Assembly (NCBI GenBank): GCA_022414725.1
Contig: CM039464.1
Span: 21,393,707 to 21,457,706 of the forward strand
Length of the DNA stretch: 64,000 bases
Source of the DNA: Microglena sp. YARC
Taxonomy: Eukaryota; Chlorophyta; Chlorophyceae; Chlamydomonadales; Chlamydomonadaceae
Reading direction: 5' to 3'
Part shown: piece after piece, positions 6,571 through 63,385 of the stretch
How the letters are laid out: the number at the start of each line of letters is the position of its first letter
Numbering within the stretch: position 1 is the first letter of the stretch
Notes under the pieces: generated by a model
Databases searched by the model: none
Told to the model about the DNA's origin: nothing
Seen by the model: only the letters and a program-made list of their open reading frames with translations
Made by a program: the position numbers and the translations under genes

Positions 6571-9500
6571 ATGATCGCTGCCCGCCATCTAGCCGGGTGT
6601 AGTTGCCTGCCAGCTCTCAGGCTGGCTGCACCAAAGCTCCCATCAGGGAATCCTGCCTTCGCTGGTGTGCCCAAGCCTAAGCTGCTGCACACCAGCATGC
6701 AAGCTAGCACCTCCAGGCCCAAAGTAGTGGTAGCAGCTAGCAGTGATGATGATGCAGAACCAGCTCCCATGGCTGGCAACCCATTTGCGGCCATGTCTGA
6801 ACTTTGGGAGAAGGCCAACACCAAGACTCGAATCATGGTGGCCTGTGCCATCCCTGCAGCCTGGATCATCACAACATCTGCACTGTGGGCCTCAATGATG
6901 AAATTCATTGGGGATATCCTGTGGCCTGTAGTTGGCCCTGTTCTTTCTCCCGTCACAACTTATATCTCCGAAAACATATTGGATGTTGCACAGTACAGAA
7001 TGTTGCAGGTATGAAATGTATGGCATGCAACATCATTGTTTTATTATCATAATTGTGGCGCACTATAAGCATACACGTGTCGGGTCCTATCTACCTTGTT
7101 TGCTTGTAGTCTTTTTTTCTTTCCAGCTACTAGCAGCAGCTTCTGGGCAGCTCCCTGAGCGAGCCGCTGTGCTTAGCCTCACCAATTCAGCAGCGGTAGA
7201 AAGCTTCAAGGTGCACTAGGTTGCTTTAGGTTTGGCTGATTAGTCAGCCAGGGGAGCTGCCTGGAAGCTGATGCTTGCAGCCAAACATGAAAACAGTGTG
7301 TGCTTGTTTAGGTTTTCGGACTTCCCTAAATTATGGGTAGTAAAGCCTTCCTATTAAAGGGGGCAGAGCCCAAAACTTGTATGGGCGGTTCTGCCACCTA
7401 TATATTAATTATACAAACTTAAACTAACACATGCAGTCTTTTGTTTCAGTTGTGAAAGGAATTTCACCCCAGGAGGTGGGTCTTCCGACACAAACCGAGG
7501 ATTCAGTCCGAATGGTATTGCCACTCCTACAAAAGAGTAGGCGCACCTGGCTATAATCTGATTTCCCTATAGTGTTTGCACCTATTTTCAGTGCTTCCAG
7601 ATAGCCCTATGAAGCATGGCAGCCACTGTGGTATCTATCTAGCTTGGAAACATTTTCTTAGGAGCTGACCTGGCCTGCATTCATCATAGCGGTAATGTTC
7701 AGGACGACAAAGACAATCAGGGACTTCGGCCCGAGCATCTTCGTGGGCACGGGGGTGCCTTCCTTTTCTGCGTGTTTCAAACATTCTTCCCACCCGATTG
7801 CCCCCTTGCCTGATCAAATTGCAAAGCTACAAGCGGCAGCTATTTTTGGAAGCCTTGGTGCCTGTGTGGGGGGGGAGGGGAGTTTGTTTTGTGTGTGTTG
7901 GGGGGGGGGGGGGGGGGGGGGGGTACTTCCTCGCGAGCATCTTCGTGGGCACGGGCCTCGGCGCTGGGCAGTCGCAGAACATGAGCAACCTCCGGCAGAT
8001 CATGGATGCCGTCTGGCCATAACTGATGCCTGTTTAAGGAATGACTTAGTGGTGCTGATGTGAATTGGATCGATTGAAACCTTTTGTATATGTAGCCTTA
8101 GCATTCAACCAACTTCAGGCCTTCTGGGGGGTGAGTGGTGAGTAAGTTTGTTCCCTGGGTATCGCACGGCGGGGAGTTGAAATTGGATGGCGGTGAGGAC
8201 TGAGCAGCCCAGAGTGGGTGGGGGAGGAACAAGGTTGGCCTTGTCAAGGCTACATGCAGGATAGGCATTGTTTTTTATTTCAGATTTATCTAGGCAAGGT
8301 TGTGTAGCTAGGTGGGCTACTCGAGCCTGATTTCAGAAAAGTTGAGTAGCCCACCGGATTTTGTAGTGTGCGGCATGAAGTGCCACCCCTTTATAGTTAT
8401 CCCCTTTATAATGAACCCTGGGTGGCTACTTTATCCCCATTCAACGAATGGCTCAATGGCAGAGCTCCTTGAAAGACGTAGGTGCCAGGTTCAAATCCGC
8501 AGGGGTGCGCTTAAGTGTTCGTGGTCGCTGTCAACCGCCATGGTAGGTTTGTCCAGGTAAAGTAGCAGCCCGTTCCCTACCGCCGTAATACGGGGCTCCC
8601 TTAATACCACGCCCCACCAGGCGTCATCATTACTTTTAACTCTGGGGAGCCTATATTGGCATCGTTTTAACAAGAGGCCTGTTCCTTCTTGCAGGTCTTC
8701 AGCTTACCTACTACTGGAAAGCTTTGGTGAGTTTCAATCATAATTGGTTCGATCATAATAGGTTTTTTCCGTCCCAGAATGAGGGTCTTCTGGTAGCGAT
8801 CAGGAAATTGGTGTCTTCCAAGGTTGGGCTCCTGGTATCGATTTGGGTTGGCAGCCCGAAGGGCTTGCCCGGGAGGTTTGTGGGCGGGTTCGAGTCTCGT
8901 GGCAGCGGAAGGTTTGGCCAAAACAGGGTCCCAGATAGCGATCGTAAAGTGGTAGTGGAAAAAAAACTATAAATTGGTCGGTCTGTGAATGCAGGATGTA
9001 TCTTCCATGCTTATTAGGAGGAGCCTGTAACCAAATCAGGCATGAGGCAGTGCAGCCACTACAAATGGTCCTGTTTTTAAGTTTTCACTCCAATGTGGTT
9101 CAATCTGATGGCGCAGTAAGATTAACATGCAGCATGTCTACTCCATGTATGAGCCGTGTACTGAAAAGCAGCCCTACCATTTTTTCCCGCTATATATAGC
9201 GATCGCTAGTTTTGACCCCGTTTTAGCGAAATTATCTCTAAAAAAAAATTGCCCTAAATGGCCCTAAAAAGCTACAAAAGCTATGAAAATCTATTCAGCA
9301 CTTAAACGCTGTCCCTGGAGGAGGCCTAAAACCATAAAGCTAGAAAAATCCACTTTCAGATTTGAAAAATATCAGTGCTCCGTGTATGGGCCGCTATTGA
9401 AAAGCAGCCGTAACAAACAAAGCGGTATCTGCCTGAGGTGCAAACACTCCTACACACATATATGTTGGTAACCCTCAAACTGTGTTCACTACACAGGGCT

Positions 9501-9989
9501 GTCTACTCCATGCATGGGGCGCAACTGAAAAGCAGCCGTAACAAGCAACATGCTATCGGCCTGCGTTGCAAACACTCTTACACTAATATATGTTGGTAAC
9601 CCTCAAACTGTGATCATTACATAGTGCATGTCTACTCCATGTATGGGCCGCTACTGAAAAGCAGCCGGAACAAGAAAAATTGGATTCTGCCTGAGGTGCA
9701 AACACTCTTACACTAATATATGCAATTACTCTTACACTAATATATGTTGGTTACCCTCAAACTGTGTTCATTACATAGGGCTGTCTTTGCTGTTGGAGCT
9801 CCTGTGGTGTTCCTTGGTGGATGGGCATACCGTCTGGTGACGGGCGAGAGTTGGGGAGATTCTGTTGCCAAGTCGTACTTCACCCTCAACAATGTGCCGG
9901 GCATGGACTGCACAACAGATGAGAACCCCATGGGTGGGTTCGTGCTCAACTGTATACACATCTTCTCACTCTTCACGTTCGCTATTCTG
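6571..9989 (+). CDS. Gene B exons 1-3: transit peptide, membrane segments and pore
   Basis: Exon 1 (6571-7008, 146 codons) begins MIAARHLAGCSCLPALRL and is rich in Ala/Ser/Lys with almost no acids at first, as chloroplast transit peptides are. A hydrophobic segment, VACAIPAAWIITTSALW, follows, and the exon ends DVAQYRMLQ. Exon 2 (8695-8726) is a 32-nt micro-exon, VFSLPTTGKLW. Exon 3 (9779-9989, 211 nt) holds AVFAVGAPVVFLGGWAYRL, the pore-region SYFTLNNVPGMDCTTD and the last membrane helix IFSLFTFAIL. Gene A has the same micro-exon and third exon at the same lengths and phases. In CASTOR the pore loop reads ADSGNHA, so the filter residues differ here. That suggests different ion preference but does not prove it. 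Confidence 0.85.
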
Positions 9990-10130
9990 GTGAGTCTTTC
10001 TCTGGTGGTCTTTCTCTGGTGCAACTAAATTTTCCATTTTTTCCCAGATGCAACTCAATTTTGTATTTGTTTCATTCACTTCAGTACAGCATGCCACCTT
10101 GCTTGCACGAGTCTGTTCAAATCCCCCCCC

Positions 10131-13924: not shown

Positions 13925-16900
13925 TGTGACCCCCTCTGCCTGCCCCCCTACCACCCCACTCAAGCAGATTATGAAACAGATCAAAAGCAACCCCAACGGC
14001 GTGTTCACGGAGCCTGTCCTCATCCTGGCCAAGAGGGACAAGGCTGACATGGACGACGAGCTGATGGAGGAGTTTGGCGAGAAGGTTGTCGGAAAGACGA
14101 TTCTGACTAGAAATGTGAGAGCCTCGGATTGTTAAACTTGGTTACATACCTTCAGCCAGCAATTTGGCTGCTCAAATAGTTGGACTGCAGCGCAGCAGAC
14201 GTTGGGGTTGTGTGTTGGTGCAGTGTCTGATGATGCAGGGAATATTACATTACATTGTCATGGAATGTTGCATTAAGTAAGAATGCATGGGATATTACAT
14301 TACATTATCACTTATCGTTAGGGACCGGCATATCATATAATATTGACCAAAGGCGAGTATGCTATCATATGAAATCATACAAATCGGATCATATGATAAT
14401 GTATATAAATGGTAGCTTTAGCTATGTCAGACTGCCGGCATCATATTGTATAATGTGATGATATGATGATATGATATCATATTGCCGTTCCCTACGGACA
14501 CAAGAGCAAGGATGTGCCCCCCCCCACAAACACAAGCACAAGCACAAACACACACAAACACACACATATATACACACATAAATACTCCCCACCTACACAC
14601 ACACAAAACACCAACATATATACGCGCACACATTCCCCCCCACACACACCCCCACACGCAAACACGAACACATATATGCACACATACCCCCCCACACACA
14701 CCACCACCACCACACCCACACACCACACACGCAAACACACACATAAATGCATACACATACCCCCACCCCCCACACACACGCAAACACACACACATATATG
14801 CATACACATACCCACCACCACCACACACACACACAAATACATAAACACACACACACCACACGCACGTCCCCCATTAGGGCTATGCGCTGCGCAAGCATTA
14901 TTTGGAGTGTTTGGCGGCCAGCAAGGCACGCACCATCATGTGGATGCACCCAACACACACACATATATATGCACACACATCCCACCCCACCCCACCCCAC
15001 CCCCCGTCCCCCATTAGGGCCATGCGCTGCACAAGCATGATTTGGAGCGTGTTGTTGCCAGCAAGGCTCGCACCATCATGTGGGTGCACCCAAGACACAT
15101 ATATACTCACACACCCTCACCCACCCACACCCTCACCCACACACACACCCTCACCCACACACACCCTCACCCCACCCCATCCCACCCCCACCCCACCCCC
15201 ATTAGGGCCATGCGCTGCGCCAGCATGATATGGAGCGTGTGGCTGCCAGCAAGGCACGCACCATCATGTGGATGCAACCCGACCATACATACATGAAAGA
15301 GCTTGTAAATGCCAACAGTGAGGAGCTAGAGGACATTGGCGAGGGCGCTGATTCCTCAGGAAAGCAATTCCTGCCGTACAACCCGCGCCTAGTGTCATCC
15401 CTGGCCACCATCCAGACTCTAGGATTGAAAGAGAGTGCACCCCAAAACCTAGTGCTACAGTCTAGGTGAGGTTTACAGGAGGGGAAATAGTGGGGTGTAG
15501 TCGAATCAGAGGTGTGTAGGGCGTGAGTTGTGGACCGGGTTTTCTGTGTGTGTGTTGGGGGGGGGGGGGGGGGGGGGGGGGGCAGGCCATTGTCCTTCGT
15601 TTCGTGGTTCCTTTGATTGCTGATATGTGCAGCAAACTTTAGGAAGGGTTTAAAAAAAGCTCCTCGGCAGTACAAATATGTTTGCCTGAAGAAAATGTAA
15701 AGGAGAATAAGTATGAGATACATTTTTTCCTTTCATTTTTTAAAAACATTTCTAGTTATTTCTTTCATTTTTTCATCAGAGGTTGGCAAGAGGGCGCATA
15801 GCTGCATGAGGAGCATGAACAAGAAGAACGTGTTATAGCCACTTAGCAGATGATTTGGATTTGGGTTTGTGAAACCCAAGTAGTTCGTAGTTCGCACCTC
15901 GAACTTCAGAATTTGGCCTGAGAATTCATGTCATTATAGCCCGAGAATCAAGAATTGTGAGAATCCTTTGAAAATGTCTGGAAAAGTGGAGGTGCAGACT
16001 ACAATAACTGAATAACTGATAACCCGGATCCAGCTCTGAAGCTTGTCATAATAACTGAATAACGCCCACGCATGTGCTAATGTACTAACTGTGCAGGGAC
16101 ATGGCTCTGAACCCGGATCCAGCTCTGAAAGTTGTCCTAAACCGCTTCAACAGACAGGAGCGCAAGTATACCATCACGCAGGTACATCAACTTGAACTTG
16201 AATTTGAACTTGGTAACATGGCTTAAAGCGTTAATAGCAATTACCATCACGCAGGTACTTGAACTTGTATGATGTTATACTTTTACGCAGAACAAAGTTA
16301 TAACTTGTGCCATCACGCAAGTATAGTATAATTTAAAGTATACTAAGTTAAAGTATACTATCAAGCAGGTACTTCAACTTCAGCTTGAACTTGGTAATAT
16401 GTTTTTTAAACAAACGTGAAAAACATGAGATGCACTTGAGTGATGGTATGTTATGTTACTGTCCAAGAAAGCGAGCAGCCTTTATAGCAATTCAGGGGAT
16501 GATTTGGGAGTTTGGTTTTGAAAAATGTCGGACTTTGGACTTCGTATCTCAAAATTAGCCCTGAATTCTGAGAATTGTGTGAGATTTGGCCTGAGAACAA
16601 GTACAGAGCCTGACCTCTGAGCCCAATTCATCCCCTGGATTACTATAAGGCTGCCCGCCGTCTTGGACAGTAACATAGCATACCATGATCTCCCGTTTCG
16701 ACGATTGGCTCAATGGTTGAGTTCGTTGAAATCAGGCAGAAGGTGCGGGGTTCGAATCCCTACAGGTGCGCCTTAGTGTTCGCAGCCGCTGTCAACCGCC
16801 ATGGTAGCACTGTCCAGGTAAAATAGCACCCTGTTTTCTACCGCCGTAAGACAGGGCTCCCTTAATCCGACGCCTCACCAGGCGTTATCATTACTCAACA

Positions 16901-19900
16901 GGCATACCATCACTCAAGTGTGCATCTCATGTTCGTCACATATTTTTAATGTACGGACTTACTTGGTGTCTGTTGGCTGGGGCAGCTTTCTTGCATCTGA
17001 GTCTGTAAAGTGGTGAGTTTTTGTCCCTCTTGTGTGGTCGGTGTTGTTGTTGTTGTGTGGCACTTGTTGTTGTTGTCGTTGTTGTTGTGTGGTCCGTGTT
17101 GTTGTTGTTGTTGTGTGGTCCGTGTTGTTGTTGTTGTTGTGTGGTCCTTGTTTTGAGGTCATAACTATGCTGCATGTGAACTTGAACTTGATCTTGGTTA
17201 AATAGCTTCAGCCAGAAATTTGGCTGCTCTCCGTCTTCTGAGTGAAAATAAATTTACCAGGAGCAAATGTAAACGTGAACAATTTGTTTTCTCGCGCTGC
17301 ATGTGGGTCTCCCTGGCACCTGTCCTGACCACTTGGCATGTTTGTTGCGTTATGTAGTCCTTGAGCAGTGAACATAAATTCACCAGGAAAATGTAAACGT
17401 GATTTCTTCTTCTTATTACGCTGCATGTAGGTCTCCCTAGCACCTGTCCTGGCCACTTGGCATGTTTGTTGCGATGATGATGATGATGATGATGGTGATC
17501 ACATTCTTCCTGCTGCCCTACTGGACTCCAAATGTGCCCTTGGCTTAACGGAGTCAAGGGAACACGTATGAACATCATGCACACAGAAGAAAAGAAAAAG
17601 AAAAACAAATGTGTTATGTAGGTGCCTGGCATGAGGAGTCTGACGGAGGTCATGGCTCAGTGTGGTCTTTGTTGTGTGATCAGCAGGATACTTCCATTGA
17701 CCAAATTGGCCAGCGCTTTAGCTCACTTGAAAAAAACAAAACTGCGCTTTGTAGTGCAAAAAGCGCAAAGATTGCTTGCTGCGCCCACAGGGGGTCGCAA
17801 AAAAACTGCACGAAACGCGCAGTGGGGCTCAAAAAGGCAGCGTGTCAGCACGCAAAAGCGCGCGCTTGGAAGTACCCTGGTGGTCAGAGCTATGCTGCAT
17901 GTGAACTTGAACTTGATCTTGGTTAAATAGCTTCAGCCAGCAATTTGGCTGCTCGCTGTCTTCTACGCAGTAAACATAAATTTAGCAGGAAAAGTTTATT
18001 CTTCCGCTGCCTGTGGGCTATCTCTATCACCTTTCCTGACCACTTGGCATGTTTGTTGCGTTATGTAGGTGACTGACATGAGGAGTCTGACAGAGGTCAT
18101 GGCTCAGTGCGCCTCACAACCCGGACTGGCTGATGTTTTCGAGGCGGTAAGTTGTTCGCTGCCCTCAATGTAATTGCATGTAAAGCTGTTGCCCAAGATG
18201 GCCTCCTTTGAGTACACAGGTATGCAAGGGTGCAGTGGTGGTGGTGGTGGTGGTGGTTACCGCCCTCAATGTAGGAGAGGCTCGACGGTCACACCAGTCA
18301 CACTGGAAGAACCATTTAACCCTATAGTTGGAGCCTGAGCCTCTGCAACTGTGTATTATCGCCCTCAATGTAGCAGCGCCCCCACTGTTACACTGGTGAG
18401 ACCGGGGGAGGTGCCGCAATACCTCAGGGTTTGGCGTCGACCGAGGCCTTGGGCCCACGCCACCTGCGCATGAACCCGCGACATGGGCCGGTCACCAAAG
18501 GTTGATGAGGGCAGTCAGGCTGCGTTCCTTGGGGCTTGCTGTGTGGGTGTGCGTGTATGTGTATGCTGTTACAGTCCAGGGGTAGGCCAAGTAGGCTAAA
18601 GAGACTTGCCCGACCGTGATAGGAAGGACTGTGTGAAAGCTAGCTTCAAGGGGTCGTGCAGGTTTTATCTGTATTTGTATAAACTGTGAAGGATAAGGCT
18701 CAGTGGAAGAAATGAATTGTGTATTGAAACCGCTGCCATGGGCACATTTTAAAGGAGGAGGAGCCCAGTCCTCCAAATTTTCAGTTAGGCGATCAATTTT
18801 TCCTGAGAATGGGGCTATAATGGCACGATTCGTTGCTATGTTTTGAGCTACTTTTCAGGTCATTCTGAGCACCTCATTTAGGGGTGGGTGGGTGGGTGGG
18901 TGGGGTGGGGGAGGTCAATGAACTATGTGTTGAAACCACTGTCATGGACAGTGCTGATAACTTATATTGCTGGCACTCAGTGCTGATAAGTTATCATACA
19001 TCAATCCCACTCCGTGCTGATGCACATTTAAATGTGGTCACGGGTAAAATAACACGAACGCGCACAACTGAAACCATAGCTTTCCTTTTCGGCTACGAGC
19101 AGCACCTTCTATGCATCTCCCCTGGCTTGCTTCCCAGCTACTCGTAAGGGAGGTGGTGCCCCTGAAATCTGGCAGAATCAGCTTCCCAGTATTGTTTATG
19201 GGGCTTATCCCAGTGGCTGGCTCAGGAAGCTGCCTAGAAGCTGCTCCTCATAGCCGGAAAAAGCTATGATTTAACACAATGCACTGCGCAAGAGATGGGC
19301 ACAGGAGTTCCTTGTTTTTCTATCTGGTGGCTTGGAATCTCACTCGTGCTTCTGTGTGCCCATGATTTCAGCAGTTTGAGCCCAGACACAGGAAGTTGCT
19401 TTTTCACTATCTTGGGGGTTGAAATCTCACTCGTGTTTGCCTGTCCATGGTTGCAGCTGTTTGAGTGCAGCCACAGGAAGTTGCTCTTTTGCTATCTAGT
19501 GGCTTGGAATCTCAATTTTGATTCCCTGCCCATGATTGCAGCTGTTTGGGCACAGACACAGGAAGCACCTTTTCGCTATCTTATGGGTTGAAATCTCACT
19601 CGTGCTTGCCTGCTCATGATTGCAGCTGTTTGGGCGCAGATACTGGATTTTTTTTACTGCTATCTTGTAGGTTGGAATCTCACTCATGCTTGTTTTCCCA
19701 TAATTGCAGCTGTTTGGGCACAGACACAGGAAGCACCTTTTTGCTATCTTATGGGTTGATTTCTCACTCGTGCTTGCCTGCTCATGATTGCAGCTGTTTG
19801 GGCACAGATACTGGATTTTTTTTCTGCTATCTTGTAGGTTGGAATCTCACTCATGCTTGATTTTCCATGGCTGCAGCTGTTTGGGCGAAGACACAGAAAG

Positions 19901-21537
19901 CACCTTTTTTACCATCCGAAGGCTTGGAATCTTACTCGTGCTTGCGTGTCCATGATTTCAGCTGTTTGAGCGCAGACACAGGAAGCACCTTTTTTGCTAT
20001 CTTATAGGTTGGAATCCCACTTGTGCTTGCATATCCATAATTGGAGCTGTTTGAACCCAGACACAGGAAGTTGCTGTTTTGCTATTTTACCGGTTGGAAT
20101 CTTACTCGTGCTTCCATGTCCATGATTACAGCTGTTTGGGCAAAGACACAGGAAGCACCTTTAATGCTATCTTATGGTTCAAATCTCACTCGTGCTTGCG
20201 TGCCCATGATCGCAGCTGTTTGAGCGCAGTGCAGACAAGAGCCCGGAGTTTAAGCTCGTTCCCGTTGGCCACATGGCAGGTTGGACCTTCGGTGAGGTAC
20301 GCATCAGCTTCCCTGGCCATACTGCTGTCTTCGGTACTCTCGTTTCTGGACTGAATCCACCTGACGAGTACATCATGGGTAGGTGATGATTGTGTTGATT
20401 TAGCCCGTTTCGGTGATACAAGTGGTCGAGTGGTACACCAAATCGCTTAAACGACAAAGGGTTGGGGGTTCGATTCCCCCTACGGCGACCCTTAGCGTTG
20501 CAGGTCGTTGTCAACCGCGATGGTAGCTTGTCCAGTCGAGGTGGTAGACCGTTCTCTGCCCGCGTACGACGGGTTCCCTTAACACCACGCCCCACCAGGT
20601 GTTATCATCAGCTTCCCTGGTCAGACTGCTGTCTTGGGTACTCTGGTGTCTGGACTGAACCCACCTGACTTGCACATCATGGGTAGGTGATGATTGTGGG
20701 GGTGGGTGCAGATGAGTGTAGGTGGGTGGTTGTGGGAGTGGGTGGTCATGGGTAGGTGATGATTGTGGGGGTGGGTGGGTATGAGTGTAGGTGGGTGGTT
20801 GTGAGAGGGTGTTTATGTATGTAGGCTGGTGGTTAGTTGGTTGTGGGAGTAGGTGGGCATGTAGGTAGTTTGTTGGTTGTGGGAGTGGGTGGGTATGTAG
20901 GCAGTTGGTTGGTTGGCTGTGGGAGTGGGTGGGTATATAGGTAGGCTGGTAGTTGTTTGGTTATGGGAGTGGGTGGTTATGTAGGTAGTTGGTTGGTTGG
21001 CTATTGGAGTGGGTAGGTATATAGGTAGGCTGGTAGTTGTTTGGTTCTGGGAGTGGGTGGTTATGTAGGTAGTTGGTTGGTTGGCTATTGGAGTGGGTGG
21101 GTATATAGGTAGGCTGGTAGTTGTTTGGCTGTGGGAGTGGGTGGGTATATAGGTAGGCTGGTAGTTGTTTGGTTGTGGGAGTGGGTGGTTATGTAGGTAG
21201 TTGGTTGGTTGGCTATTGGAGTGGGTGGGTATATAGGTAGGCTGGTAGTTGTTTGGCTGTGGGAGTGGGTGGGTATGTGAGTAGTTGGTTGGTTGGCTGT
21301 GCGAGTGGGTGGGTATATAGGTAGGCTGGTAGTTGGTTGGTTGTTGGAGTGGGTGGGTATATAGGTAGGCTGGTAGTTGGTTGGTTGGCTGTGGGAGTGG
21401 GTGGGTATGTAGGTACATGGTTGATTTATTGGTTGGTTGTCAGGCCCTCTCAACTGCCTGCGGGCAGGTTCAGCTCCACCTTAAGCATTAGCAGTGGGTT
21501 GGTGAGTGGGTGATGATCGTGGGAGTGGGTGGGTAGG

Positions 21538-47040: not shown

Positions 47041-47049
47041 TCAAGGGGG

Positions 47050-47989: not shown

Positions 47990-48375
47990 CATTCCATGCA
48001 TTTTAACTAGAACAAATGGATTTGTTTTAGAACTGGAATTGTGTGATGGAATGTCCTTAGTACTCTGAGGAGAGGAATGGGTTTTATGAGAAATCAGGAA
48101 TTGAGTGCGATTGTCTATGACTTTAATATGAGAATGTCAATGAACTCTGACTCATTAAGAGGATGGAAACCTTTTGTTACATGCTGTTACATGTATTTAT
48201 AAATGTGACAGGAAACGTGAAGTTAAATTATGTCCATAGCACGAACTCCGGAGCCCCGTCTTTTACGGTGTGTTGGGCTTTAGTTCACTACTGCTTGTTT
48301 TTTTCTTCCTGTTGTAAGGTTGGGCAAGTGCCTTTAGCCTATTTAGCTACACCTGGAATGCAAAAATACATACAT
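47990..48375 (+). mobile_element. decayed 5'-truncated LINE copy
   Basis: A frame ending NSDSLRGWKPF matches NPDSLEGWKYL of the 10.7-kb LINE. Downstream agcacgaactccggagcccc, gttgggcaagtgcctttagc and acatacat match its 3' UTR and tail. Confidence 0.75.
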
Positions 48376-48704
48376 ATGGACAGACAACTTTGGCATTAAT
48401 ATCTTTGCATTATTGCTACCCTGCCTGGATACCATGTGTAATGATCAGGACTCGGTCTATTAGCTCCTTGCCCTTGTGATGTTATCAGGTGCGCAGATAC
48501 TATGCAACCGCCACCCTTGTAGACAGAAGTTTACTTCATGTATGTTAGTAGCTGGGTAGTTGCTGTCCTCAGGCAGGAGCATACGGTAACCACAGGGCAT
48601 TTGTGCATATTTATCTAATCGTGTGATGCTATGGTCAGTAACTGCTAATTTCTTGGATTATTCCAGCCATGTGGTTGGCTGGTATCTAGAGCGAGGAAAC
48701 ACAG

Positions 48705-48735
48705 GATTTGCCCTTGACAGACACAAGGGCAAATC
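48705..48735. other. perfect 12-bp inverted repeat
   Basis: gatttgcccttg - acagaca - caagggcaaatc, a 7-base loop. The surroundings show no gene or poly-T, so I do not call it a terminator. Confidence 0.7.
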
Positions 48736-48835
48736 ACACACTGTCCTTCCCCAGTCCTTCCCCACCCTATTGGTCGACCCCCAGGGGCTAAGACATACGC
48801 GATGCGTACCTGTACGCGACGTTTTTTCTCCTTCG

Positions 48836-50225
48836 ATTCCCCCCCCCCCCCCCCCCCCCGAAAAAGCCGGTCAAATTAGCCGGTTGAACTGACCTCCCTC
48901 ACAGCTAAGGGACCCGTGTTCGATTCTCACAGGGGATGGATACGGATGAGTCGCATTCCATGAACGGGAGGGGGGTCGCCTTACCTCGGAGGGTACTTAT
49001 TCGCGTACGGATCTCAGGTTTGCGGACTGTGCACGCGGTGTTTTCATTTGTCGTTTCTCTCCTGTCCTGTGGACTCAATCTAGGGACCTGGCGCATGTCT
49101 ACGATTTCCCCTGGGAAAATTCGCATCTCAGTGCCTCTCGCAGCTCATTGCAGCAGCTCATTGTGCTTGACAAGGCAATCTGCTGTTTCGCACAAGTACC
49201 TGCAGGTTGCGCAGTAGCAACTGTAGCCTCGGGAGTTGCTGCACCTGCCTCCATGGAACTTCCGGGAGTCAGTGAGCTATTAACTTCTTTAGCCTTACAG
49301 GCCAGTAGGCCACCAAGTTTAATAGTTATGCCATTTGCACAAGCGTTACAAAGTCAAGCAGAATGCATTATGCAATAACTAATGTGTAACCAATGAAATA
49401 TTGGCGCGTAATATGTGCCAAACTGCCAATATTATACTGATATATTATATTAATTCTTGACCCCTCAAATACTAAATTGTACGGATGAGATCATATGTTC
49501 GCCAAGATATTTTATGCCAACGCCCGCAGCTAGCGCTCATACCCATAGTGTGGGGCTTGAATATTTCCCTAGGCCCCCCCAATAGTTCTTAAGCGGCGCA
49601 GGTTTGTCTTGGATCTCGATTTACATTACGACGACAAGGCCATAAATGGCACGCAACCTGCGAACGATCTCCAACATGAAATCGGTGACCACGGCGCGCT
49701 TATTCCATTAGCTCGGTAAATATGGAGACGGAGACTGTACCTCGCAGCGGCCGTCGATTGGGTCTTCACTTGGCGTGGCCATCGCTCGGGACTACGTCCA
49801 CCTAACAAGGGATCTAACCTGGTGAGGGGGCCCTGGACCTAACCCACGACAGGGTCGAGTCACTCCTGGAGGGCAGCTTCTCTTGAGCGGGTCCCAGAAA
49901 TCCACCCTCGCACTTTTAGGCGCAGCCCTCCCGCCCGCCACCACCAGATTGGAACTGCTTGTCTACTTATTGGTCCGGGAAGCTGGGTGGCAGCTAAACT
50001 CGGCCCCGCTTCGGCGGGTCCAAATACTCGCGCAAACGCTCAATATCCAAACATTATCGCAGAGCACCACACCACTCGGCCTATACATCAAACACAGAAG
50101 CTACCTATCATCCACAACCATTCTCTCGTGACTTCAATCGGCAGGAGCTTCACGCCCACTCACCTCGTCGCAACAAAGCTGCCCCTCTCTTCCCTTCTCC
50201 TCCGTAAGTCCCCGAGACGGATACA
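48836..50225. other. unassigned intergenic sequence after a C run
   Basis: A C homopolymer (48840-48859) is followed by a tRNA-like head fragment (cccgtgttcgattctcac) at about 48909-48930. GC-rich unique sequence follows, with a 74-codon Ala/Leu-rich frame (49148-49378) and an 82-codon frame (49883-50131). Neither has a known motif. They could be 5' exons of the VWA gene or element debris. Confidence 0.35.
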
Positions 50226-50289
50226 TGGTGGAATGTGTCATGAAATCATCTAGCCGCATGAAAACATTATCATCTACCACGGACGACCT

Positions 50290-50555
50290 GTGTTTTTGGC
50301 GGAGCCCCCTCTTCAAGGGGGCGGGAGCCCCCAGGGTTACCCCCCGGGTTACCCATTTGTCCGTCCGTCCGACCGACCGACCGACCGACCGACCGACCGA
50401 CCGACCAGCGACCATCCGACCATCCGCATCCGTCTGACCGAGACGAAGCCTGACATGCCAGCCAACGGTCTCGTAACTAACTCGCTTCCGTTGCCACCTG
50501 TCGAACACTCTTCGCCAATTTTAGCGTCGCATGCGACGCTGCATGGGACTTGCAC
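50290..50555 (+). repeat. PR-family copy with expanded gaccgacc run
   Basis: tttggcggagccccctcttc, then (gacc)n at 50371-50405, then ctaactcgcttccgttgcca and agcgtcgcatgcgacgctgc. A LINE-tail fragment follows (50560-50625). Confidence 0.8.
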
Positions 50556-50699
50556 GATTTAATCTTGATTACTCGAGGCTGGACAAGTCACTTAAGCCTA
50601 TTTGGCCACCCCTGGAATGTCACCTACACCACCTCAGTTCAATAAATGTGACTTCAGACATGAATTCCAAGAGTAGCTCATCTATATCAACCCTACCTT

Positions 50700-50975
50700 T
50701 GAAGTCCCCCCCCCATCGTCCAAAAGCTGCTCAACTCATTTCATCCTGCCTTCTACCCACACACATACACATCCACCCGCACCCACATAACACGCCCCCA
50801 CCCCACCCCACTGACACCACCCCTCCGCCCCCCTGCGCCTCCCTCCCACACCCCAGACACCACACACCTCGCCCCCCCTTCTATACCAAGATCTTCTCAA
50901 TCAAATCCTCCCTGCAAGCTGCATCCATCCCCTCACCTGCCCCCCCCCCACCCACCCACCCACCCCCGCCTTCCC
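50700..50975 (+). repeat. C/CA-rich low-complexity sequence
   Basis: ccacaccc/ccccaccc blocks up to the acceptor of the VWA gene's first visible exon (50981). Confidence 0.85.
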
Positions 50976-50992: not shown

Positions 50993-52303
50993 ATGAAGAC
51001 TGGAGAGAAGATCCCTGCACCTGGCTCTGGCAAGGACCAATTGGGCCCCATGTTTCGCGTCCTCATCAACCTGGATATCACAGGCAAGTCTTCATACAGT
51101 ATAATATAAATAAATATGTAAATATCAAGCCTTATTACGAGGCGTGAGGTTGGGGGGCCTGCCAGTTTGCTTTTACTAGGACCAACCACCATTATTTTTG
51201 CTACTGTCTAATCTGCATGTTTGGCTCCCTGGTTGGGTATCGCATGAGGGGACTTGGCATTGAAAGACGGTGAGCAGCCCAGAGTTGGCTGAATACATTT
51301 GAACAATCCAATCCAATCCAATTTAATTAAATCCAATCTATAGAATCCAATCCAATCCAATATCACAGGCAGCATGTCTAACGAGATCGAGGGTGTGAAG
51401 GTCATGGTGGCTCAGTTCGTGACCTTCCTTGAGACCATGAGCGTGCCCCTCCTATTCGCCATCGTCACCTTCACTGAGGACAGCCAGGGATGCTATGTGT
51501 CACTCAACGAGTTTTCCTCCTTCCAGGACACCCTGGCCTTTGTGGGCAGCATCAAGCTATGCCAACCTCCTGACCAACCTTTGGTCAGTGCAAACGGAGA
51601 AGATGGTGATGAGAATCAGAAGGCTGCTCTGCACCGCCTGATTGACCTGGACCCCCTTCCCACTGTCGGTTTCCTCATCACAGATGCCCTTCCCCACTTG
51701 GGAGCCAACAACATGCAGGGGACTACAGCTAGGAAGGAGCTGAGTTGGCTCCAGAACCGTGGCGTAGATTCTGATACAGCTAGGGACTTCTTCCGTGTCT
51801 TGGGCCTGGTCAAGGAGCATTTCCAGAATCTGCTGGTCATGAACTGTGTGATCTACAACCATGTGCCTGGGAACAATGTGTATGGTAGTGTGGCTCAGGA
51901 GACGGGTGGGATGCTGATGATACCCAGGAGTCGTACTGCAGACGTACTGGCAGAGGGAATGCTGCAGGTTGTGAAGACCGTGCTGAATCAGCTAGAGGGG
52001 GTCAGCAGTGAGGAAGTGACTGAGCTGGCTGGCTTTGATCTCTTTGACCTGAGCGGGCTGTCCCATAGGCAGACAGAGGCAGACCCCGCAGGTCTAATGT
52101 CCTTGGGGGACAACAGCACCATCTTCCAGATTGCCATGGAGCGCACTACTGAAGGTAAGCTAGCCTCACACAGTGATTGAACTACACAACGTGAGTTAGT
52201 ATACCGTTGTAGAACTAACATGATGAGGCATGCTCATAAGTCCCCCTTGACTCCGTCAAGCCGCAAGCACATTTGGAGTTCAGTAGGGCACCGGGTAAAA
52301 TGT

Positions 52304-52368: not shown

Positions 52369-55300
52369 CCATCACCATCATCATCACCATACATCACCAT
52401 CATCATCACCATACATCACCATCATCATCATGCTATGAGCTCATAGTGTATACTAGTTGGAACCAAGTTAGGCAACCCGCTTGGGTGGGTGTGCAGGGCT
52501 GGTGGATGCTCCACTCGGATGGTGTCTTTTTAAGCCCATGTGTCTGCATGAATGAGTGCCACAGTCAATAGGTCAAGTAAGCAAAGAAGACCCGATATCA
52601 AACAATGAAGATCCATTCTACATGAATAGAAGGGCTTGCACACCTGGCCTGCAAATGTGTAAAATGTTGAACCCTAGGATGGCTCCATTTAACCCTAGGA
52701 GGGCTCCATTTAACCCTAGGAAGGCTCCATTTAACCCTAGGAGGGCTCTTATAAACCCTAGGAGGACCCCATTTAACCGTAGGAGGGCCCCTTAAACCCT
52801 AAGAGGGCTCCAACAAACCCTAGGAGGGCTTAATTAAAAGAAAGACCATACTAATTCACTGGCAATTTGCTGCATGCAGTGTGCGGCCGCAAGTGGAGCA
52901 AGCGAGCAGTGGGAATGAGTGAGCCAGCAGATCAGCTTGAGTTTGTTTGGCAGGCTGCGCGCTATATTGTCCTACGGGGAGATCCCACCATCCCCGTCGA
53001 GACCACAGATGCTGACCTGGCATCCTTGCTGGCGCTCCATGAGCGTATCACCTCCAAGCTGAAGCCTGAGATCCGTGGCCACTTCAGCTTTGGGGAAGCA
53101 GATATTGAGCACCTGGCTGAGCTGGCAGCCAGTGCCAGGCTGGCGAGCGCGGTTGAGTCACCCACCACAAGTGTGATCTCCCTCGAGACTGTGGGGGATG
53201 CGCTGGCAGACGATGCTGACTGGGAGGATTGGCTTGCCACCGTGATGCGCATCCTCATGGGCTTCCCCATGAAGCTACAGCTGCCCTTGGATAGGAATGG
53301 CGCGCCTGACTTTGCTGACGCATGGTGAGTGGAATGAGCCTGTATGTCTGTGAGCTTTTGTTTAACTTTATTTCAGTCATGTGCTGCTGATGATGCTTGG
53401 TGAGTGGTATGAGCCTGTATGCTTGTCAGCTTTTGTTTGACTTTATTTCAGTCATGTGCTGCTGCTGCTGATGATTATGGTGAAATTTTCCTGGTGCCCT
53501 ACTGGACTCCAAATGTGCCCGCTGCCTGCCAGTCAAGGGGGACTTGTGAACATCATGGTTTAACATCATGGTACAGCTGTAGCGCAGGGGGATTGGAACT
53601 TGATCAAGAGAGGCAACATGCATGAATGTAGCTTTACATTTTACTGCTAACACCAACACCAGCCGAACTGCATCTGCTCACACAACCCATGCCCCCCTCT
53701 ACACCCATACCCATACCTACCCTTTCTCACCCTGGCTTACGCCCCCTCATCTCTCTCTCACCCCTGTTCCAAACACCACATGAGAAGATCCATACATGCT
53801 TGATTCATGAACCATAACCCTGCTCCCTTGGCAACCCAACACCTGCTAGCCTGCTGTTCATCTCCCCCTCCTTTTGTCCCACCACACCCACCCTAACACG
53901 CTTGTGTGTCACACCCTTGCCCAGGTCTGCCGTCTCTCTGGCCCTGGGCTGCGACAAGATGAGCTCTGCAGACTTCTTGCGCATGTTGGGAGACAACCCT
54001 ACAGCTGTGGGACCCACAGACCGAGAGGAGCACAACGCTTTTCTTCTGACTGCTGAGCCAAAGGACTCATTGGCCTTGTTGATTTTCAAGGTCGCCAGTG
54101 GGACTCAGGTGCTCAACTACATCACTGGAATCCTGATGGGCGCCAAGGGCTTCCTTCCAAACCTCCATTGTGGAATCACCTCTAGCAGCTTGGTGCGCCT
54201 GGTGCACTCAGAGTCGGCCCTGACAGAGTTCCAGTGGGGCCAGGCGGAGCAGCTAGTTCATACGCTGCGTCTCGTCCACCGTTGCCCTGCCAAGAGCCTA
54301 GCTCACAAGCTGAAGCATGAGGGTTTGGCTAACCCGGCTGACCCCCTCTCCAAGCTCGTGGCTGTGGCCGTCAGGCTGGCACCAGGGACAGATCAGCAGA
54401 AGTCTGTACTACAGCTTGTCCTGCACGAGTGGGTGGCTATCATGCTACAGAAGCACTACGGCAAGCAGACACCCGAAAATGACGAGAAGTACATCGACTC
54501 GCTGATGCAGTACATCCCCTTGGAGGCACTGCTTCCTGGAAGTGAGAGGGAGATCCAACCTACTAGCGAGCTGCATGTGCTGGAGCTTGAGGAAAAGGCG
54601 ATTGTCGAGAAGTTGGCAACTAGTTGGGAGGAGGCATGCCTCCAGCGCTTGCACCACGGAGTCCCTGGGTCTGACATACCCCCCCACTGTGTGATGGCAC
54701 GCTTTGAGCAGGCCGCAAACCGAATGCTGCGTCTGTTGATGCCAAACGAGGGAGCAGGAGCTGTTGAGGTGTCAACTGTGTGGCCCCAGTGGCAGGTAGG
54801 AGTGCTCCAGGCCATCCTGCTGAGATATCGTGGGGCTAGGTACAAGTGCCTGGGGCCTGTGGATGGCACCCTTTCTGAGCTGGGGTGGGAGCGAGTGGAA
54901 GTTCCCAGCTTGGGGGCCTTGGTCGTGGAGCGCATGCAACAGGCAGCTGCCAAGAAGCTGCAAAGCTACAGACAGGAAAGGCTGGCACATGCAACAGAAT
55001 GCCTCCTGTCAGCGGCAGCGGCAGCTGTTGTGAGCGCTGGCTCTGAGGACGGAGTGGTTGAGGTGCTGCAGGGCATGTACATGGAAACCTCAGGTGTCCA
55101 TGTTCTCCAGACACGCCCTGGGCAGCTTCCCATTGGACCTGTGGCTCGAGTGGTTGATGTGGTCGGCAGGCTAGACAGGAGCAACGTACCGCACATCCTT
55201 GAGCGCCTGGGGGACAAGCCCCTGAAGCAGGAGGTCCTCCGTGGCCTGGTCCTGGGAGGCTGGACTACATTGCCCCCCCAAGCTCTGAGGAGCTCCTCGG

Positions 55301-55677: not shown

Positions 55678-56190
55678 ATGTTGAAGCCAACCCACATGCG
55701 CATGTGTGTGTTGATGTGTGTGCATTTATGTGTGTGTGTTTCAGTCCGGAACAGCCAGATCGGCTAGTGGATAGCCAGATAGGCTAGTAGGACCTCCCCA
55801 CGATTGATTGATAAATTGTCATTGGAGGGTGATTTGCAAAACCCAAGAATTAGCTTGGGGCCTACTGCCCAACATATCGCTCCTTAAGATAATGGTGGAG
55901 GGATGAAAGAAATGTACCTACATAGTTATGATAGTACAGAGAGGCTGAACCATTTGCTGCAGGTCTTATGGTCAGGCAGCAGACAGACTTGAATGTTTTA
56001 GATAGTTGTATATAATGCAGTTTATTTGGGCACAGCCAGATAGCCAAATGGGACTCGCCTCCTCGAATGTACAGTAGGAGTGGGACCTTGTATACCACAT
56101 AGTAACCACAATCTTGTGCGTTGCTTCGTTTTTTCAAGCTCCAGGGTGGGTCATTGATTTCCCCCAGTCCGTCATTATTTATTTATTTGT
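55678..56190. other. 3' flank of the VWA gene
   Basis: A gtgtgtg stretch and a minus-strand LINE-tail-like gatagccagataggctagta. No gene seen. Confidence 0.4.
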
Positions 56191-56194
56191 TTGT

Positions 56195-56500
56195 TTTGTA
56201 TTACATTACATTACATTACATGTTAAAGTCTACTTGACACCGCGAGGGTGTATGAGACTCTGTGCTTTAAACAAAAAGAAAAAGCACCCACAAAGCAAAA
56301 AACCCCATTACATCAGGGGTGTGTCGAGGACAAACAAACCAAACTCCCAACCACCGTTTTGGTGGCGTAGGTATTAAACCCCTTAGAGCCGGACCCAGAT
56401 CTCAACCACTTACAGTGGCGGAGGTAAGAAGCTGACAAATGAGAAGTCACAAGAAGAAGAAAAAAAGGGATGATAAATTACGGTGCCACTAAGCAGTCCA
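56195..56500 (+). mobile_element. R290 retroposon copy
   Basis: (acatt)n then gttaaagtctacttgacacc, accaccgttttggtggcgta and gtgccactaagcagtccagg. It differs from 37365-37645 at only about ten positions, so both insertions are recent. Confidence 0.85.
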
Positions 56501-56639
56501 GGGTTTCCTGTCTTGCTCTTCTACAAGTAGAAAGATAGTCGGCTAGGTTGCTCCAAAAAGACTTAGTGCCATTTCCATTCATAAAGGTTCTGAATGTGGA
56601 ATCGCAGAATTCCACATTCCATACGGTTAAGTTGGTATC

Positions 56640-56800
56640 CTCATGGACATGCCTATAAATATCTGTAAACAGCTTCTGGTAGCGGAGGCGAATATCATTA
56701 TGTCGGAGGCGAATATCATTGTATGTATGGGAAGTATTCCCCTAGTTAGCGGAGGCGAATATCATTGTATGTATGGGAAGTATTCCCCTAGTCTTTCGTT
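56640..56800 (+). repeat. short tandem duplication gcggaggcgaatatcattgt
   Basis: Two full and two partial copies of gcgaatatcattgtatgtat, gggaagtattcccctag. The rest of 56500-57260 shows no gene. Confidence 0.8.
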
Positions 56801-57267
56801 TTGTCCCCTCTTGGCCACCATGTTGCCCTTAGTATTGCGACTGCAGCAGATATTGCATATCCCTCGTTGTGTTTATATATGACTGACCTGATAGCAAGTA
56901 AATAAGTAATGGAATTTGTAAATCCTGTTATTTTTGACAAAATCGATAAATTCTCTGTGTGGGCCCGCGCAAGGAGATGAACCATCCTTTAGAGTGGTAA
57001 TCCTTTCATCAAACAAATTCCCTAATTTTGCCGTTCTAAGCCGTCTGCACCCCCAAACGGAAAAATTCTCTCTCCATCTCAATGGTCGTGTCTCTAGTTT
57101 GATTCCTATTTTTATTTTTACTAGATTGTTTGTTTGTTTTCTAGGTTTGTGCCTCAAAAACCCCCATGCTTCCTGTTATACAATTGGATGGTAGGCAGGC
57201 TGTGCTGGTCCTGTTTCGGCACTGATTTGATGAGTTTGTGTAACGAACCCTCTCTCTCTGTGTCCAG

Positions 57268-57375
57268 GGGCAGGCCAAATAGGCTAAAGGGACTTGCCCA
57301 ACCGTGACAGGAAGTGCTACAAAGAAAAAGCATTGATGAACAGAATCCCAAACAATCGTTTCACCGATGCGGGCC
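57268..57375 (-). mobile_element. LINE 3'-tail, minus strand
   Basis: gtccaggggcaggccaaata, acttgcccaaccgtgacagg and caatcgtttcaccgatgcgg. Confidence 0.8.
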
Positions 57376-57609
57376 CATACATTGTGATTAAATCATCATC
57401 CCATATGGAATGACAATTGAATTGTAGGTACTAGGCTCCCACTCTCCCGGACCCCGTTTTATTGAGGTAATGTGAAAAAGGAGCTCATATGCAGTCAATT
57501 TGTTTGTTCCCAGGCCTTTTAGGTAGCTACTAGAAGGTACCACAGGCTCTTGAGGTCGATATGTCAACATGTGTTAGCCTGCTTCAACCCTTCATTATGG
57601 TAGATGATT

Positions 57610-57825
57610 TTTTTGGCGGAGCCCCCCCTTCTGGGTTTGGGAGCCCCCAGGGTTACCCCATTGTCCGTTTGTGAGACCAACCGAACGACCGACTGACCGA
57701 AAAATTGAAGCCTGACACTTCAGCCACCTGTCCTAACCAACTGGATTCGGTCAGCTCCATCGCTGCCACCTGTCGTTCTGTTGCCAACACACTCAGCCAA
57801 ATTTCGCTGCACAGAACTTGTCAAG
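57610..57825 (+). repeat. PR-family copy
   Basis: tttttggcggagcccccct, gggagcccccagggttaccc and ctgccacctgtcgttctg. At 58015-58200 a 60-base block (tgccattgccatagaatagc) is repeated three times. Confidence 0.75.
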
Positions 57826-58754
57826 GCCGAAAGCACCATAGGACTTGTCAAAGCCAAAAGCACAATCCAATACCAATATGAATTTTGAAAGCACGACTTT
57901 ATCAAACTCTCCATGTGTTACTGCAGATAACAACGTTACAACAATTGATCACGTCAACTGGATACAAGGTCTAACACTTCATTATCAATGGGGAGTCCAG
58001 GAGCTTTTTTTGTTTAACGGTTATACATGCCATTGCCATAGAATAGCAGTAGGTTACTAAACTATTTGTGTGTGTACCGGTTATAACTTGTACATGCCAT
58101 TGCCATAGAATAGCAGTAGGTTACTAAACTGTTTTGTGTGTGTGTACCGGTTATAACTTATAAGTGCCATTGCCATAGAATAGCAGTGGGTAACTAATCG
58201 TCTCCCTGTCCACAGGCAGTTTTGACAGCCTGTACATGGCTGCCGGACATTTTAATCAGATTGATCTCTTCTTCCTTTTCCACTAGCTGTCCATCGCTTC
58301 AAGACGACATGGACATGGCTCCGTCATAACGACATGGACGGGGTGCTCAGCTGCTACTCCAAGCCATTTGATGTGCTCACTCATCGCCCCAAACCTCATC
58401 CACAGCCTGGTGACGTTTTAGTCGCACCTGCAATTCAGATAAGTCAAACATCCCACACCACATAAGTACAAAACAATAGCAAACCCTACTGGTTGGGGGC
58501 CCAGTGCAAGCAAACGGGCTGCCCCCCTCAACCTCACACCTCATTTATTTTATTTTACAAAAAAGAAGAAGACGATGACTAGCAAGACAATGATCGACTT
58601 GTCATCTTCACGCCTCTGCTTTGGGAAGGGTCAACTCAAGCGCCTCATACCCACCTACCTACCCACTTACCTACCTACCCACCCACCTACCCACTTACCC
58701 ACCTACCCACCTACCTACCCACTTACCTACTTACCCACCCACCTACCCACCCAG

Positions 58755-61042: not shown

Positions 61043-61086
<44 letters not shown>

Positions 61087-62474
61087 GGTTCTGACTAGTT
61101 TAGCCAAACACATGCGTCACCATGCAGAAGAAAAAAATCAGTGGGAGTGAAACATTAATGTGGTGATGGATGAGGAAAAGGGAAGCCCAACAGGTTCATG
61201 TGCCATTGGTATGTTGTACAAATATCATCTGTGAGATATGCATGATCTTTGTAGCATTCGACATATGCGACATGTGCAATCCATTATGCATTTATATGCC
61301 TGCACAATTATATCTTGATGTGCCGTGTGTTTGATAAACCATGTGCAAACAGAGAAGAGTCCCAATGCTGCAGATTGCTATGCCGGATGCATGACAATTG
61401 ATTTAGAACCATCCAGGGGATGATTTGGATTTGGGTCTCGTAGTTCGTTGTTCGTACCTCCACTTTTTCAGGCATTCTCAGAGTTCTCGATTCTCAGGCA
61501 AACAATTCAGAATTCTCAGGCAAATTCTAAATTTGGGGTATGAAGTACGAACTGTTTCGAAAACCCAAATCCAAATCATCCACTGAGTTGCCATAATGAT
61601 GTCGTCATTGTTTCCACATAAGGTCCTGAGTGCACTATTAAAACAGAAGGAGCTAGTCACGAATATTTTCCTTTCCAGGGTTATTTCGAAGAACAGGAGC
61701 CGGTGCCTTATGTAGCACCATGGTGCTCCAACTAGCCTTCTGGGTGCTAGTAGCAGCTTTTTTGCCCCCCAGAAGCACCCCCTAAAGGCTCCTACGTAGC
61801 ACCCCCAAAACACCAAGGCACGGAAGGTAGCACTTGCGCTACAGTAAGTAGCACCATAAAGACATAAATAAATAAATATGGAAATAAATATATAAATATG
61901 GAAATAAATATATAAATAAATAAATAGTATACATACAATAAATAAACAAGTAGCACCATAAATACAAGTTATGCTCGTTCGTGTTTACCTTATGGTTTAC
62001 CCATTACTCTTTGTTGTGCCTGCTACCCGTGATTTCCTTTACCTGAGTCCACGATGTAATACTCGTTTCCTTACAACATCTCATATTTCCAGTAGCTAAA
62101 AGAGCTCTGTGCAACATATTACGACTAGTAGCACCATACAAAATGCTGTAACTTTATCTCACCAATGTCAATGCTAAGCTTGGCCGACTAGTAGCACCAC
62201 AAATAAATTGCTGTAACCTTCTCTCACTTATGGCAGTGCTAAGCTTGGCCGACTAATAGCACCGTACTTAAAAGGCTGTAACCATCTCTCACCAATGTCA
62301 GTGCTAAGCTTGGCTGACTAGTAGCACCATACATAAAATGCTGCAACCTTCTATCACTAATGTCAGTGCTAAGCTTGGCGGCTTCAGATGCCTCAGTCTG
62401 CTGTGGTGGAGTCCTACATCGAAAGGATTACACTGGGTGTTGGAGTACGCTACTCAACACCATCATTTGCCCCC

Positions 62475-62505
<31 letters not shown>

Positions 62506-63385
62506 ACACAGTAACCTTCTCTCACCAATGTCAGTGCTGAGCTTGGCGGCTTCAGATGCCACAGTCTGCTGTGGTGGAGTCCTACACCGAAAGGATTACA
62601 CTGGGTGTTGGAGTACGCTACTCACCACCATCATTATCCACCCACCCACCCACCCACCCACAGTAACCTTCTCTCACCAATGTCAGTGCTAAGCTTGGCG
62701 GCTGCAGATGCCTCAGACTGCTGTGGTTGAGTCCTACATCGAAAGGGTTGCACTGGGTGTTGGAGTACGCTACTCACCACCATCATTATCCACCCACCCA
62801 CCCACCCACCCACAGTAACCTTCTCTCACCAATGTCAGTGCTAAGCTTGGCGGCTGCAGATGCCTCAGACTGCTGTGGTTGAGTCCTACATCGAAAGGGT
62901 TGCACTGCGTGTTGGAGTACGCTACTCACCACCATCATTATCCCACCCACCCACCCACCAACAGTAACCTTCTCTCACCAATGTCAGTGCTAAGCTTGGC
63001 GGCTGCAGATGCCTCAGACTGCTGTGGTTGAGTCCTACATCGAAAGGGTTGCACTGCGTGTTGGAGTACGCTACTCCCCACCATCATTATCCACCCACCC
63101 ACCCACCCACCACAGTAACCTTCTCTCACCAATGTCAGTGCTAAGCTTGGCGGCTGCAGATGCCTCAGACTGCTGTGGTTGAGTCCTACATCGAAAGGGT
63201 TGCACTGCGTGTTGGAGTACGCTACTCCCCACCATCATAACCCCCCCCCCCCCCCCCCCCCCCCCCCGCCCACACCCACAGTAACCTTCTCTCACCAATG
63301 TCAGTGCTGAGCTTGGCGGCTTCAGATGCCTCAGACCATGGACGAAGGTTGAATTCATGTTGATCAATCTTCAGCAATGCTGTTG
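60719..63385 (-). CDS. part of a gene for an R3HCC1L-like coiled-coil protein (two exons visible)
   Basis: Minus-strand exons 63385-63296 and 60858-60719 join in phase 1 to give KIDQHEFNLRPWSEASEAAK, LSTDIELLPPRVRPATTAAV, ARRLLSHALGLPGLRDKAAE and QKLAAKRKEAKD. The pattern RPxT(S/T)xxVARRLhxxALG followed by a Lys/Glu/Ala coiled coil resembles the C-terminal part of R3HCC1L-type proteins. I am not certain of the family, and function is not established here. The upstream and downstream exons are not identified. The first exon's 3' part with its donor is copied at least nine times in the following intron, and its acceptor-side intron is repeated about four times (63400-63680). Confidence 0.5.
61040..61090 (+). 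repeat. (TG)n microsatellite
   Basis: gtgtgtgtgtgt, about 19 units. Confidence 0.97.
61413..61580. mobile_element. MITE with caggggatgatttgg ends
   Basis: caggggatgatttggatttg at the left and caaatccaaatcatccactg at the right form a 20-base TIR. The interior has tcgtagttcgttgttcgtac and attctcaggcaaattc. It is the inner core of the foldback element at 16412-16944. Confidence 0.8.
61690..61850 (+). repeat. sequence rich in tagcacc repeats
   Basis: tgtagcaccatggtgctcca and gctcctacgtagcaccccca. The phrase agtagcaccat(a) recurs through 62330 (61950, 62130, 62190, 62320). aaataaataaat runs lie at 61864-61925. Confidence 0.65.
62150..63295 (-). repeat. array of about ten exon-end/donor copies, 65-150 bp units
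   Basis: Read on the plus strand, each unit has ccttctctcac|caatgtcagtgctaagcttg, i.e. donor plus exon end on the minus strand. Units lie near 62156, 62223, 62296, 62353, 62523, 62674, 62825, 62974 and 63124, before the true one at 63295. The longer units also contain tgctgtggttgagtcctaca, cgaaagggttgcactgcgtg and ttggagtacgctactc plus (ccca)n. C homopolymers occur at 62470-62490 and 63241-63267. Confidence 0.9.

Follow-up and report, generated by a model that had tools for sequence, protein, structure and literature searches.

Tandem copies of splice junctions in the introns of a likely green alga, with a duplication focus on the acceptor side

Tandem repeats that span exon-intron boundaries are known from amphioxus, where they have been named mirages. 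Two papers place them in the Adh3 and globin genes (PMC3087553), in troponin C (PMC3087553, PMC3902484) and again in PGBD5 (PMC3902484). According to PMC3087553, reverse transcription PCR (RT-PCR) suggests undisturbed splicing, and the internal units are homogenised with exclusion of the boundary units. Length polymorphism, somatic cases included, is a further trait of mirages. No genome-wide count of mirages is described in the portions of PMC3087553 and PMC3902484 that were available. In potato, a new intron arose from a tandem duplication across a boundary (PMC4974935). In the open-licence literature, represented mostly by titles and the openings of abstracts, no junction-spanning arrays were recognised in algae or, apart from potato, beyond amphioxus. 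Here we describe such arrays in a stretch of 64 kb (C3:21393707-21457706; referred to as the window) of a 568-Mb assembly of 2390 contigs. The window holds gene B, which encodes a CASTOR/POLLUX-like ion channel, a VWA gene, a SANT exon, and two genes which we take to be pherophorin-like and R3HCC1L-like; a sample of further genes was drawn from the whole assembly. We consider it fairly probable (about 0.6) that general tandem duplication fills the introns, is densest at their 3′ ends and spills over the exon edges, and that it is not aimed at the junctions.

Within the window, junction-spanning tandem copies were found at 12 of 50 exon edges by a strict test, which demands that at least 6 of the 8 bases on either side of the junction match, an ungapped score of at least 18 and a copy within 1.5 kb. 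A first-order Markov sequence control gave 0 of 625 positions. The arrays have the structural features of mirages that were tested; their likely host, an alga, their density and their focus on the acceptor side are new. As described for mirages, the repeats span acceptor or donor junctions and have their spare copies towards the intron. Duplication can affect either boundary, 5′ or 3′ (here 27 of 66 acceptors and 19 of 66 donors in the sample), and many copies, though not all, carry AG or GT (here 36 of 36 strict copies, with per-edge means of 0.78 and 0.80). Homogenisation of internal units with exclusion of the boundary unit is seen here at exon 11 of gene B and partly at exon 9, the two arrays examined. 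Mirages as described to date have a cephalochordate host, so that the present arrays differ in taxon and not in structure, and a handful of chordate genes stands against 19 of the 25 genes sampled in a likely green alga. For amphioxus, RT-PCR served as a check on splicing; density against the intron background, with its acceptor-side focus, was measured here. The preliminary description of this DNA knew of no named system that does this genome-wide; as regards the structure, the boundary-spanning repeats of amphioxus, called mirages in PMC3087553 and PMC3902484, correct this. The potato case shares the tandem duplication across an intron-exon boundary, but a new intron arose there whereas introns lengthen here. 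Ordinary intronic minisatellites also grow in blocks with divergence of their units; here, by contrast, the exon edge is often part of the unit, and the acceptor-side intron is over-represented.

The sample comprises 66 introns of 25 genes, i.e. 132 junctions. Searches of the whole assembly with two families, chaperonin (CCT) and kinesin, yielded 64 and at least 128 exon matches, respectively, with 122 of 325 kinesin candidates scored. Clusters were grouped by eye, and 11 CCT clusters and 14 of about 35 kinesin clusters were fetched. Their junctions were resolved from family positions together with splice-site scores and pooled with the 23 modelled introns of the window; the SANT and R3HCC1L-like edges lie outside the sample. 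Fourteen CCT and three kinesin introns stayed unresolved and were left out, and one CCT and two kinesin introns were dropped before the count owing to weak splice scores (the second intron of kinesin cluster K2, among those dropped, had copies at both ends). CCT clusters G6 and G8 and kinesin cluster K19 contributed no counted intron. For kinesin clusters K9, K17 and K26, partial copies were already visible in the match list before fetching.

Copies in the neighbouring intron were found for 46 of the 132 junctions (27/66 acceptors, 19/66 donors), and 19 of the 25 genes have at least one duplicated junction, while local shuffles of the sampled sequence gave 0 of 132 duplicated edges. Without the window and without K9, K17 and K26, 16 acceptors and 13 donors of 38 introns are duplicated. 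In the match lists, from which pairs were chosen by eye, partial matches sharing the end of a fuller match lie downstream of it in 7 of 7 cases, and those sharing its start lie upstream in 4 of 4. The pattern recurs in unrelated genes on several contigs. The earlier proposal that introns grow by tandem duplication including junction segments was supported, and in this sample repeats overlapping exon edges exceeded a shuffled control, a comparison that had been named as a genome-wide check. If true, the structure known from a few amphioxus genes would extend to a far distant lineage, at a third of the sampled junctions. The arrays would be a natural test of how the spliceosome chooses among near-identical neighbouring sites, and junction duplication would lengthen introns and possibly give rise to new ones.

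Duplication is frequent throughout the introns. In the interiors of the 66 introns, a fraction of 0.453 of positions has a local copy when counted raw, and 0.193 when weighted by 1/copy number. In the window, raw duplication is 0.333 in introns and least in exon interiors (0.082). Outside the modelled genes of the window it amounts to 0.145, as compared to the 0.333 of the introns, in only four stretches (1700-5400, 36300-39700, 46500-50700 and 55800-58000, one of which may lie in an intron of gene A). This lower value, from four stretches, might hint at a link with transcription.

Junctions were at first viewed as ordinary intron positions. The expectation from the raw fraction was 29.0 of 66, against 27 acceptors and 19 donors seen, and raw distance profiles have no peak at the acceptor edge (0.58, 0.49, 0.45, 0.54, 0.50, 0.50 and 0.48 in the intron, 0.41 at the edge, 0.38, 0.39 and 0.28 in the exon) or at the donor edge (0.54, 0.43, 0.36, 0.38, 0.37, 0.32 and 0.29, then 0.29, and 0.23, 0.19 and 0.21). 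These raw figures hide a focus, because copies of the junction unit fill the adjoining intron. An array-collapsed measure starts at the junction, moves away from it and disregards bases that repeat sequence already traversed; it revealed a focus on the acceptor side, and the first view was dropped. The collapsed profile of the acceptor-side intron is densest at 8-40 bases (0.55) and falls to 0.42 at 40-80 and 0.21 at 150-250 bases. The edge itself has 0.42, followed inward in the exon by 0.40, 0.38 and, at 40-60 bases, 0.27. Intron sequence near the acceptor (8-60 bases) is duplicated at 0.516, as compared to 0.248 beyond 120 bases (65 introns, P<0.0001). Excluding exons from the search does not alter the focus (0.512 near versus 0.224 far, 66 introns), so that exon conservation was rejected as its whole cause, and shuffles gave 0.04 and 0.01 for the near and far zones, which ruled out chance matching of biased sequence. 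According to a copy-weighted comparison, 46 edges are duplicated where 32.3 are expected (ratio 1.42, 1.10-1.70); for recent copies the numbers are 18 and 14.8 (1.22, 0.81-1.58).

The raw data also differ between the two intron ends, with 0.528 before acceptors versus 0.338 after donors (59 introns, P 0.0009) and 0.536 versus 0.372 at 80-300 bases (49 introns, P 0.013). This asymmetry is probably the same acceptor focus seen uncollapsed. Over copies of all ages, junctions are thus a focus of duplication in part, namely at acceptors and with the centre inside the intron, and not clearly at donors. As candidate causes of the excess of duplication just upstream of acceptors, selection may act more strongly against extra donors than it does against additional acceptors, or duplication may be tied to splicing or transcription.

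Two arrays of gene B have a block structure. In the exon 11 array, four internal units are 0.93-0.97 alike, and each of the six has a likeness of 0.71-0.75 to the exon-joined copy. In the exon 9 array, units two apart are 0.95 alike (e.g. 19625 and 19793), and neighbours 0.77. Multi-unit periods reported by Tandem Repeats Finder match better (371 bp at 92%, 125 bp at 86%). Block growth and internal homogenisation in these two arrays fit slippage and unequal exchange.

Starting from the duplications, their density, the all-age acceptor-side focus and the block structure of the two arrays, the following course of events is proposed. Units of tens to hundreds of bases would duplicate in place by slippage or unequal exchange, most densely in the 80 bases or so that precede acceptors. 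Where a duplication reaches from the intron a short way into the exon, an intact junction would stay on the exon and a spare copy would lie on the intron side; this placement of spare copies follows from the geometry of an overlapping edge. Such a duplication is likely tolerated, as one intact junction remains on the exon, while a duplication wholly within an exon would change the protein and is likely removed. Arrays would then grow in blocks and homogenise internally, with the exon-joined copy held apart, and splicing is predicted to continue at the site on this copy.

The splice dinucleotides within the copies gave no sign of special preservation or removal, as far as the sequence can tell. 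In strict window copies, AG is kept in 20 of 20 acceptor copies and GT in 16 of 16 donor copies. With alignment anchors placed outside the junction, the mean fraction kept per edge is 0.78 for AG (26 acceptors) and 0.80 for GT (18 donors), about the same as for the flanking bases; other intronic AG and GT dinucleotides in copies are kept somewhat less often, at 0.69 (AG) and 0.61 (GT). When the upstream acceptor copies of gene B are used with read-through, stops or a frameshift result in 20 of 20 cases. The preliminary description had suggested that arrays are tolerated because each copy carries its own splice signal and leaves the exon in frame. This is not supported: all 20 acceptor copies of gene B break the frame with read-through, and AG and GT are no better kept than the surrounding bases.

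A number of points weigh against a general process that merely spills over exon edges. By the collapsed measure, 28 of 66 acceptors are duplicated where 16.0 are expected from the same introns (P 0.0001; 1.75-fold, with a gene bootstrap of 1.21-2.38); restricted to copies of 90% identity or more, the numbers are 11 and 5.6 (ratio 1.97, P 0.01, bootstrap 0.96-3.10). A count by repeat family gave 29 acceptors and 20 donors versus 8.8 expected each, and 11 acceptors and 7 donors versus 4.3 for recent copies; the family-count expectation is probably too low, with the unit length capped by the smallest offset. From the acceptor excess, position does matter to the duplication process. A seeding role of pyrimidine tracts in the excess was not supported: at a distance from acceptors, pyrimidine-rich sequence is duplicated at 0.166 and mixed sequence at 0.143. 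Old copies may also stay recognisable longer where conserved 3′ intron signals hold them. Finally, except in gene B and the VWA gene, the junctions were placed by family matches and splice-site scores, and those of the pherophorin-like gene by frame and splice sites. Together with the higher duplication near acceptors and the AG or GT kept in all 36 strict copies, the acceptor and family counts favour a process in which splice-site segments, mainly acceptors, are preferentially duplicated or kept via splicing, transcription or selection. This we regard as a minor though real possibility. Collapsed donors have no clear excess (20/66 versus 17.1 expected, ratio 1.17, gene bootstrap 0.79-1.57, P 0.21). 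Without the window and K9, K17 and K26 the collapsed counts are 19 versus 12.5 for acceptors and 14 versus 12.7 for donors. Duplication peaks 8-40 bases into the intron rather than at the junction itself; AG and GT are retained to the same degree as the flanking bases, and the acceptor copies of gene B break the frame with read-through. Among copies at least 90% identical, the near and far zones differ by 0.170 to 0.092 with P 0.36, and an acceptor excess among such copies is unsettled. The earlier statement that repeats favour junctions is therefore partly supported at acceptors, with the peak displaced into the intron, and has no clear support at donors. A bolder version, in which duplication focused on 3′ ends and tied to transcription or splicing expands introns, about a third of junctions sit beside decoys and a spliceosome rule ignores equally good copies, is in our view rather doubtful.

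General duplication densest at 3′ ends also has to be set against explanations of another kind. A function of the copies as alternative exons, or as alternative splice sites under regulation, appears improbable. A public gene model from EukProt, P0001, which covers the locus of gene B, takes part of the second exon 6 copy (15018-15083) as coding sequence, yet P0002, an 827-residue protein of a relative on a 2560-base contig and likely from a transcript, is without this insertion. Read-through from the acceptor copies of gene B ends in stops or a frameshift, and the splice dinucleotides of the copies give no sign of additional constraint. The model is a warning for annotation. Repeats introduced or expanded during assembly are a very unlikely source. 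Small indels between exon 13 of the window and P0001 do indicate some base errors or allelic differences, but many copies differ by at least 20%, unit sizes are many and relationships block-like, P0001 still has part of the second exon 6 copy despite a source sequence differing in exon 13, and the pattern recurs on several contigs. Introner elements are repeated sequences tied to splice sites, with dispersed copies at many loci. An origin of each array as an inserted mobile element of this kind, carrying splice sites, would agree with one VWA intron whose 12-nt end repeats resemble a target-site duplication. Introner copies are near-identical and dispersed, whereas the exon 11 array, the one array searched, is local to one junction: in the 568 Mb it matches itself, its own exon and a single 60-bp stretch elsewhere (80%), in a search that skips very common words. 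As the units also include the adjoining exon edge, such an origin is hardly credible.

Gene B (6571-36063, plus strand) was modelled with 17 exons that join into a single open frame without a stop across 16 GT-AG introns. Seven of its 16 acceptors pass the strict test. Exon 3 (9779-9989) has one acceptor copy with its junction at 9497 (feature 9497-9989), exon 6 (15206-15465) has two at 14878 and 15018 (14878-15465), and exon 8 (18069-18146) one at 17622 (17622-18146). Eight acceptor copies with a period of about 84-85 bp precede exon 9 (20216-20378; feature 19300-20378), and six precede exon 11 (24677-24834), where an array of about 125-bp units occupies 23341-24175 (23341-24834). The short copy at exon 15 (30597-30750; junction 30562, feature 30562-30750) is the weakest with 66% identity, and exon 16 (34512-34632) has one copy with its junction at 34382 (34382-34632). 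The acceptor of exon 4 is borderline with a score of 15. Three of the 16 donors pass, all with copies downstream: exon 7 (16097-16181) with junctions at 16255 and 16369 (16097-16392), exon 9 with junctions at 20683 and 20752 (20379-20807), and exon 11 with three at 24975, 25112 and 25257 (24835-25279). All these features are on the plus strand.

One of seven VWA edges passes, the donor of exon 4 (52880-53324, plus strand), which has one copy of a 75-bp unit with its junction at 53400 (52880-53464). The end of the R3HCC1L-like exon with its donor (62122-63400, minus strand; junction 63295/63296) passes as the only edge tested (1/1), with eight donor copies downstream. None of eight pherophorin-like edges and neither of two SANT edges pass. 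In a looser first test, 16 of 25 acceptors and 6 of 25 donors had scored high; it was replaced, as it counted one-sided matches including simple repeats.

Compared with the edges listed in the preliminary description, seven of the ten gene B acceptors named there were recovered, as were all three donors (exons 7, 9 and 11), and the acceptors of exons 7, 13 and 14 fail. Upstream of exon 7 the copy starts within the exon, as read from the sequence; at exon 14 the intron end alone is copied; and at exon 13 an upstream copy of the exon start with a few intron bases (27699-27983, plus strand) falls short on the intron side. In the other genes, the R3HCC1L-like donor was recovered and VWA exon 3 and the SANT exon were not. 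VWA exon 3 has just a 12-nt direct repeat common to both intron ends, and the repeats at the SANT exon adjoin the junctions without spanning them by the strict rule.

P0001 matches Pfam Castor_Poll_mid and CASTOR structures in the PDB. For both gene B and the VWA gene, the closest named relatives come from Volvox, Chlamydomonas and Tetradesmus; the VWA list has, at lower ranks, oomycetes and also brown or yellow-brown algae. Judging by the closest relatives, the host is likely a green alga. The SANT exon matches Pfam Myb_DNA-binding. The pieces tested of the presumed pherophorin-like and R3HCC1L-like genes (37 residues of the latter exon) gave no Pfam match, and neither did the VWA exon. In addition, the P0001 model is a fusion with the pherophorin-like gene that follows downstream (39886-40086). 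Between exon 13 of the window (27906-27983) and P0001, small indels shift the frame and then restore it, which reflects an allelic difference or an assembly error.

A 40-bp tandem array at 4522-4769 resembles the end of exon 12 of gene B with its donor (77% over 48 columns). It lies 22 kb from that exon on the same strand and near a head-to-head CASTOR-like exon (5436-5920, minus strand); from its sequence, it is possibly a junction array of another paralogue. The VWA intron at 51084-51368 (span 51068-51384) has a GC donor and the 12-nt direct repeat ATATCACAGGCA at both ends, as would be expected if the intron had arisen by duplication or insertion.

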